This document shows, piece by piece, positions 9,742-59,485 of a stretch of DNA of 64,000 bases. The stretch's first letter is position 1. Every line of letters begins with the position of its first letter. The stretch spans positions 1 through 64,000 of the forward strand of contig CAMDBI010000004.1 in assembly GCA_945889005.1 (NCBI GenBank), read 5' to 3'. The DNA comes from Bacteroides fragilis. Lineage in GTDB: Bacteria; Bacteroidota; Bacteroidia; Bacteroidales; DTGW01. Below the pieces are notes generated by a model. It did no database searches, was not told the origin of the DNA, and worked only from the letters and a program-made list of their open reading frames with translations. A program made the translations under genes and the position numbers.

Positions 9742-9935
9742 AATTTAATATTTAATGTCGTTTAATTAAGAAAAAATAAAACCCCAACCCCTTATGTTTC
9801 GACTACGCTCAACAACCAGGGGCAATAACATTGCAGTACGGCGGTTTTTCCTCCTCGGTTACTGAACTTAGTCGAAGTAAAGGAGGTGCAGGGGATGTTT
9901 AAAAAGCTTAACTAAACGACATTAATTTAATATTT
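9742..9935. mobile_element. MITE-like element, copy 1, with 12-bp flanking repeats
   Basis: The element at 9754-9923 (170 bp) begins AATGTCGTTTAATTAAG and ends CTTAACTAAACGACATT, terminal inverted repeats matching at 16 of 17 positions. Both ends abut the identical 12-mer AATTTAATATTT (9742-9753 and 9924-9935), the pattern of a target-site duplication. The interior has no coding frame; it contains further short inverted segments (TTCGACTA near 9798 and TAGTCGAA near 9868). It fills most of the 390-bp gap between the transporter and the CAP protein. The remainder of that gap shows nothing clear. Confidence 0.7.
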
Positions 9936-37493: not shown

Positions 37494-37636
37494 CATTTGT
37501 AATTCAACGTCGTTTAGTTAACATTCTTCTTTTTACCCCCATCCCCTAAAGGGGTTATAATGAAGTCTCCTTTAGGGGATTTAGGGGTAATTAAAAAGTT
37601 GATATTACTTAGCTAAACGACATTAATTTGTAATTA
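37494..37636. mobile_element. MITE-like element, copy 2, with 12-bp flanking repeats
   Basis: The element at 37506-37624 (119 bp) begins AACGTCGTTTAGTTAAC and ends CTTAGCTAAACGACATT, matching copy 1 at 9754-9923. The 12 bases on each side, CATTTGTAATTC (37494-37505) and AATTTGTAATTA (37625-37636), agree at 10 positions, fitting a slightly decayed target duplication. The interior is one large hairpin with CCCCTAAAGG (37543-37552) and CCTTTAGGGG (37569-37578). The right end forms part of the stop codon of the acyl-CoA synthetase gene. No coding frame inside. Confidence 0.7.
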
Positions 37637-59371: not shown

Positions 59372-59485
59372 TAAGGAATGTGGTTTAGGTAATTATTCTT
59401 ATAAATAAGCGAATATTAATGCGTGAAAAATACTTAATTACTTAAATTTACTTTTTTATATTGTTAATACATGATTTTTATCGAT

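Follow-up and report, generated by a model that had tools for sequence, protein, structure and literature searches.

The window, a stretch of 64,000 nucleotides from a Bacteroidales genome, carries two short non-coding elements, one near 9.75 kb (copy 1) and the other near 37.5 kb (copy 2), which have common ends and interiors of different types, B and A respectively (Table 1). Copy 1 lies between divergent genes for an MFS transporter and a CAP protein, and both copies are intergenic, except for one stop codon at 37623-37625, with no transposase inside. This stop codon, TAA, closes a minus-strand acyl-CoA-ligase gene and is supplied by the right end of copy 2, while the last residues of the ligase are encoded by the 10-bp duplication next to it.

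Table 1. Features of the two elements in the window (positions are those of the window).
Feature	Position	Strand	Length	Description and basis
Left target duplication, copy 1	9743-9752	.	10 bp	ATTTAATATT; sequence and 22-copy comparison
MITE copy 1	9753-9924		172 bp	18-bp ends YAATGTCGTTTARTTAAS, 10-bp target duplication ATTTAATATT
Left terminal inverted repeat, copy 1	9753-9770	+	18 bp	TAATGTCGTTTAATTAAG; motif search and comparison of copies
Interior, copy 1	9771-9906	.		Type B (170-bp class), non-coding; two hairpins
Right terminal inverted repeat, copy 1	9907-9924	-	18 bp	TAATGTCGTTTAGTTAAG as minus-strand reading
Right target duplication, copy 1	9925-9934	.	10 bp	ATTTAATATT
Left target duplication, copy 2	37495-37504	.	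10 bp	ATTTGTAATT
MITE copy 2	37505-37625	.	121 bp	Type A interior (120-bp class, CCCCTAAAGGGG hairpins), ends as copy 1
Right target duplication, copy 2	37626-37635	.	10 bp	ATTTGTAATT

An earlier note on this DNA had described copy 1 as a 170-bp non-coding unit with 17-bp terminal repeats and a 12-bp target duplication. The inverted pair is real, with AATGTCGTTTAATTAAG at 9754-9770 (plus strand) and AATGTCGTTTAGTTAAG at 9907-9923 (minus strand) showing no mismatch to AATGTCGTTTARTTAAG, but the true end is 18 bp; the unit is indeed non-coding and measures 172 bp. Likewise, the 12-mer AATTTAATATTT stands exactly at 9742-9753 and 9924-9935, adjoining both 17-mers, yet the duplication proper, as judged from 22 copies, is 10 bp, and the 12-mer results from the addition to ATTTAATATT of T 9753 and A 9924, the outermost bases of the ends. 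As for the second copy that the note had placed at 37.5 kb, its ends are related (17-bp pair at 37506-37522 and 37608-37624) and its 10-bp duplication is exact, but the 12-bp flanks mismatch at two positions and the interior is of the other type. Over the whole window the end motif, allowing three or fewer mismatches, gave five matches against 0.99 expected, a number that no shuffle reached. For a third match resembling the terminal repeats, at 59377-59393 (three mismatches), inspection of 140 bases revealed no partner, so it was treated as chance.

The genome to which the window belongs (G000) is a draft assembly of 3.26 Mb in 62 contigs and holds at least 22 paired copies. With up to two mismatches allowed, 21 forward and 23 reverse ends were found, compared with one of each for a reversed control pattern, and the consensus CAATGTCGTTTAGTTAAG was built from 44 ends. 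When one base of slack was allowed at each end, the 10-bp duplications were exact in 11 of the 22 copies and had at most one mismatch in 18, whereas the control, 462 flanks cross-paired between different copies, contained no exact match and one that differed at a single position. Exact duplications of 11 and 12 bp were seen in 5/22 and 2/22 copies, respectively (cross-paired, 0/462), and the 22 pairs are best described by ends of 18 bp, YAATGTCGTTTARTTAAS, flanked on their outer sides by a 10-bp duplication. The targets are rich in A and T and show a preference for T at position 3 and for A at position 8. At C22:15247-15368, a type A copy is nested inside a type B repeat and flanked by the duplication ACCCCAACCC; removal in silico of the insert and one duplication gives a join that reads AATTAACCCCAACCCCTTAA, the same as a paralogue on contig C26, which thus represents a paralogous empty site. 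In addition, no element was seen, over 260 bases inspected, at the ends of the orthologous acyl-CoA-ligase genes of three genomes (G001, G003 and G004; 58-59% identity), a comparison made at the level of the gene with relatives from other genera of the same family.

With lengths of 172 and 121 bp, inside the 50-1000 bp class, non-coding interiors, shared inverted ends and a duplication of constant length, the window elements have the characters of MITEs; an autonomous element with the same ends, also expected of this class, occurs in other genomes and in none of the contigs of the window's assembly. REP/BIME palindromes are, as a class, dispersed and devoid of transposon ends or target duplication, and the window elements carry both.

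The interiors are of several kinds. Type A, about 120 bp with CCCCTAAAGGGG hairpins, is found in copy 2 and many others, type B, about 170 bp with two hairpins whose loops are near-complementary, in copy 1 (loops TTTCGACTACGCTCAACAACC and GGTTACTGAACTTAGTCGAA) and others, and further kinds are also present in this genome. Of 18 interiors folded without their ends, 15 surpassed their shuffles (z from -2.2 to -8.6; -3.7 for copy 1), while flanks of equal length mostly did not, and the other three showed no unusual folding. Among the 24 genomic matches to CCCCTAAAGGGG, 19 fall within end-bearing elements; the remainder, four in two palindromes on contig C1 and one on C10, have no recognisable ends. 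Another hairpin motif, TTCGACT-nn-GCTCA, occurs 40 times in the genome, sometimes in IS4-type elements and sometimes free, and it is present in two elements whose ends (GGCATCTCTAAAAACTC) are those of a second, abundant group of MITEs. At the window copy no terminator-like site was detected in a transcription-terminator scan, and searches of Rfam and of PDB sequences gave no match.

The second group is more abundant in this genome than the first (contigs C1, C2, C6, C15, C16, C23 and others; L201-L230). Its members are about 169 bp long, have ends GGCRTCTCTAAAAACTS that are enclosed by one more G/C pair, with 68 end matches in the genome, and duplications that are apparently about 4 bp, e.g., TTAA, TTAT and TTTA; no intact copy was found in the window. 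Two elements of 128-129 bp, L201 (C2:52973) and L202 (C40:2430), combine second-group ends with a different interior, namely the TTCGACTACGCTCA hairpin, which is also present in IS4-type elements.

The end sequences are patchily distributed, being present in 7 of the 40 relatives searched. In three relatives from the same order (G001, G014 and G033) the same ends bound elements of 107-167 bp with exact or near-exact 10-bp duplications and quite different interiors, and in a fourth (G028) the elements, with duplications of the same quality and other interiors again, range from 406 to 1057 bp. The latter (L097-L101, such as the one at C2:34905-35959) are mosaics of several dispersed repeats (TGTCATCCTGAGC..., TTCGACTTAGCTCAGCATGACA), and no transposase was seen in them. 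The Bacteroidales MAG RS_7_37 (G011) holds internal-deletion derivatives of an IS4-type element, of 756 and 956 bp, with transposase remnants, the 956-bp element having the same ends and a broken transposase, P0001.

With P0001 as the query, complete elements were retrieved from named MAGs, nearly all of them Bacteroidales or Bacteroidetes. Nine have both ends (L122-L125 and L127-L131; 1476-1500 bp), the first 12 end bases being identical in all 18 ends, and exact 10-bp duplications flank L125 (ATTAATAATT), L129 (ATATATAATC) and L130 (ATTCGTAAAT). In one genome (G101) a complete insertion sequence occurs together with smaller elements that have the same ends, of 155 bp (one mismatch in the duplication) and 248 bp (three mismatches). 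The partner transposase, P0002, matches the IS4 family model NCBIfam NF033592 at 160 bits (cut-off 115) as well as Pfam DDE_Tnp_1, and its best-ranked match among plasmid records has 37.6% identity. It carries the YREK signature, Y(2)R(3)E(6)K, as YHFRWNEEEAYKLLK at residue 322, and its DDE residues, D136, D219 and E329, are spaced by 82 and 109, within D(60-110)D(100-150)E. As regards the reading frame, those of L124, L129, L130 and L131 are open far upstream of the first ATG; the longest ATG-started frame has 321 aa, the open frame has about 430-450 aa, and a conserved GGGTATATAGGGGGTAA adjoins its upstream open part.

Within the IS4 family, the IS4 subgroup is defined by a length of 1400-1650 bp, the YREK motif and a duplication of 10-13 bp (Table 1 of De Palmenaer et al. 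2008, PMC2266710), along with the end pattern -AATR--------WTW, in which the first base is free (PMC2266710). The ends of the MITEs fit this pattern, as do those of the partners, which have CAATG at bases 1-5 and TTA at 14-16, and the partner elements have all four traits of length, ends, YREK and duplication. The IS4Sa subgroup has ends CA------T with a relaxed third base and duplications of 8-10 bp (PMC2266710); here the CA, the T at base 9 and the 10 bp fit, yet base 1 of the MITEs varies and base 3 is constant, the combination published as the mark of the IS4 subgroup (PMC2266710). The ends, size and duplication of the putative partners fit the IS4 subgroup. The ends of E. coli IS4 itself, TAATGCCGATCAGTTAAG and TAATGCCAGTCAGTTAAG, match the consensus CAATGTCGTTTAGTTAAG at 14 and 13 of 18 positions, respectively.

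No encoded transposase of the group that matches the MITEs, and no remnant of one, was found in the window's own assembly. Full-length P0002 gave a single match there, a weak one to a differently ended IS4-family transposase. The IS4-family transposase at C23:51397-52398, the sole match of this family over the cut-off in the genome, was weighed as a possible mobiliser but ruled out, since its own ends (TCACTATCAACCGACAAAAAT) differ. On contig C23, the ends TCACTATCAACCGACAAAAAT, unlike those of the MITEs, bound a 1.43-kb IS4-family insertion sequence (L133:1220-2650). A transposase of the matching group could be hidden in collapsed repeats of the draft assembly; given its absence from the assembly, the copies can probably no longer move, or else they were moved in trans. 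Those seen today are likely to be left over from an earlier invasion, or to have depended on an insertion sequence that has been lost or was missed by the draft assembly.

Taken as a whole, these comparisons make it very probable that the genomic copies are MITEs which share the ends of IS4-type insertion sequences and their 10-bp duplication, and which have been mobilised via these ends. The IS4-like transposase suggested in the earlier note is thus supported by sequence comparison, the same ends and 10-bp duplications being carried by IS4-family elements in relatives, and the three checks that it had named, for further end pairs, an autonomous insertion sequence and empty sites, turned out in favour of the idea, the last through the paralogous site and the gene-level comparison. 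A trans-acting IS4-family transposase would bind both ends and excise the element, which would then be joined to a staggered cut in an AT-rich target, and repair would leave the 10-bp duplication; the ends alone seem to be needed, and the interior would therefore be free to change. We infer mobilisation in trans, cut-and-paste chemistry, the capture of hairpins and the loss of the source element from this genome. Cut-and-paste chemistry is established for other transposases of the IS4 family, those of IS231A, IS10 and IS50.

Another reading would make the hairpin interior primary, as a REP-like palindrome or a terminator with its own means of spread, to which the IS4-type ends were added secondarily. 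The strong folding of 15 of the 18 interiors speaks for it, as do the related hairpins that stand in this genome without these ends and the TTCGACT-nn-GCTCA hairpin shared with two second-group MITEs. The duplications, however, adjoin the IS4-type ends rather than the hairpins, three interiors fold no better than usual, elements with the same ends have wholly different interiors, and neither a terminator-like site at the window copy nor an Rfam family was found, so that we regard this order of events as quite unlikely. It is also rather unlikely that the elements arose by internal deletion from one IS4-type element, instead of being independent end pairs around foreign DNA: true derivatives of this kind do exist, in RS_7_37, and retain parts of the transposase, but the type A and B interiors, compared by eye, are unlike the complete elements beyond the 18-bp ends, and no group remnant turned up in the window's genome.

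Fixed, selected elements, i.e., regulatory or transcript-end hairpins that are not products of transposition, might be suspected from the intergenic position of both window copies, one of which provides a stop codon, and from the location of copy 1 between two divergent genes. Target duplications far above chance largely refute this idea, and the nested insertion with its unoccupied paralogue, the orthologous ligase genes that lack the element and the patchy presence among relatives add to making it very improbable.

Elements of this kind have parallels among known systems. The mobile insertion cassettes MIC231 of Bacillus cereus, of the IS231 subgroup, have IS4-family ends, lack a transposase and are mobilised in trans. 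The window elements resemble them in having IS4-family ends without a transposase, but the ends of MIC231 (CAT...) are those of a different IS4 subgroup and passenger genes lie between them, whereas the window elements are short and non-coding. The likeness to the IS4 subgroup, represented by E. coli IS4, extends to the end pattern, the 10-bp duplication, the length of the partners and the YREK motif, with the difference that the window elements encode nothing. Within Bacteroidales, the MITEs of Porphyromonas gingivalis (BrickBuilt and MITEPgRS/MITE464) are present in 10-20 copies, with similar ends, unrelated interiors and cases of one MITE inside another (PMC4596501), but their ends resemble those of the IS5 family, their interiors consist of tandem repeats and their duplications are short and irregular in length (PMC4596501). 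Common ends around unrelated interiors, nesting and the bacterial order are shared with the window family, which differs in its IS4-type ends, 10-bp duplications and hairpin interiors. A MITE related to ISHwa2 in Haloquadratum walsbyi, 237 bp long with 17-bp ends and present in 34 copies, is likewise assigned to the IS4 family (PMC3852290, Table 4), but it is archaeal and its duplication is 5 bp (PMC3852290, Table 4) versus 10 bp here. IS4-family MITEs (PMC3852290) and MITEs with common ends and different interiors (PMC4596501) are already known. In the papers searched, neither the end sequence nor the hairpin motifs turned up, and as far as this literature goes the present MITE family looks undescribed.

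A broader idea, which we hold to be conceivable although doubtful, is that in Bacteroidales the IS4-type ends serve as an open frame into which resident palindromes have repeatedly been captured, with hairpins being favoured over other DNA and exchanged between MITE groups of unrelated ends. Such a preference might stem from a benefit to transposition or from selection on transcript ends. If such an exchange is true, it could show by what route bacterial palindromic repeats disperse when they lack their own transposase. More directly, a dispersed non-coding repeat of a Bacteroidales genome is tied to a transposase family by its ends, the length of its duplication and its complete partners, and this link to an IS4-type transposase makes such repeats annotatable across the order.
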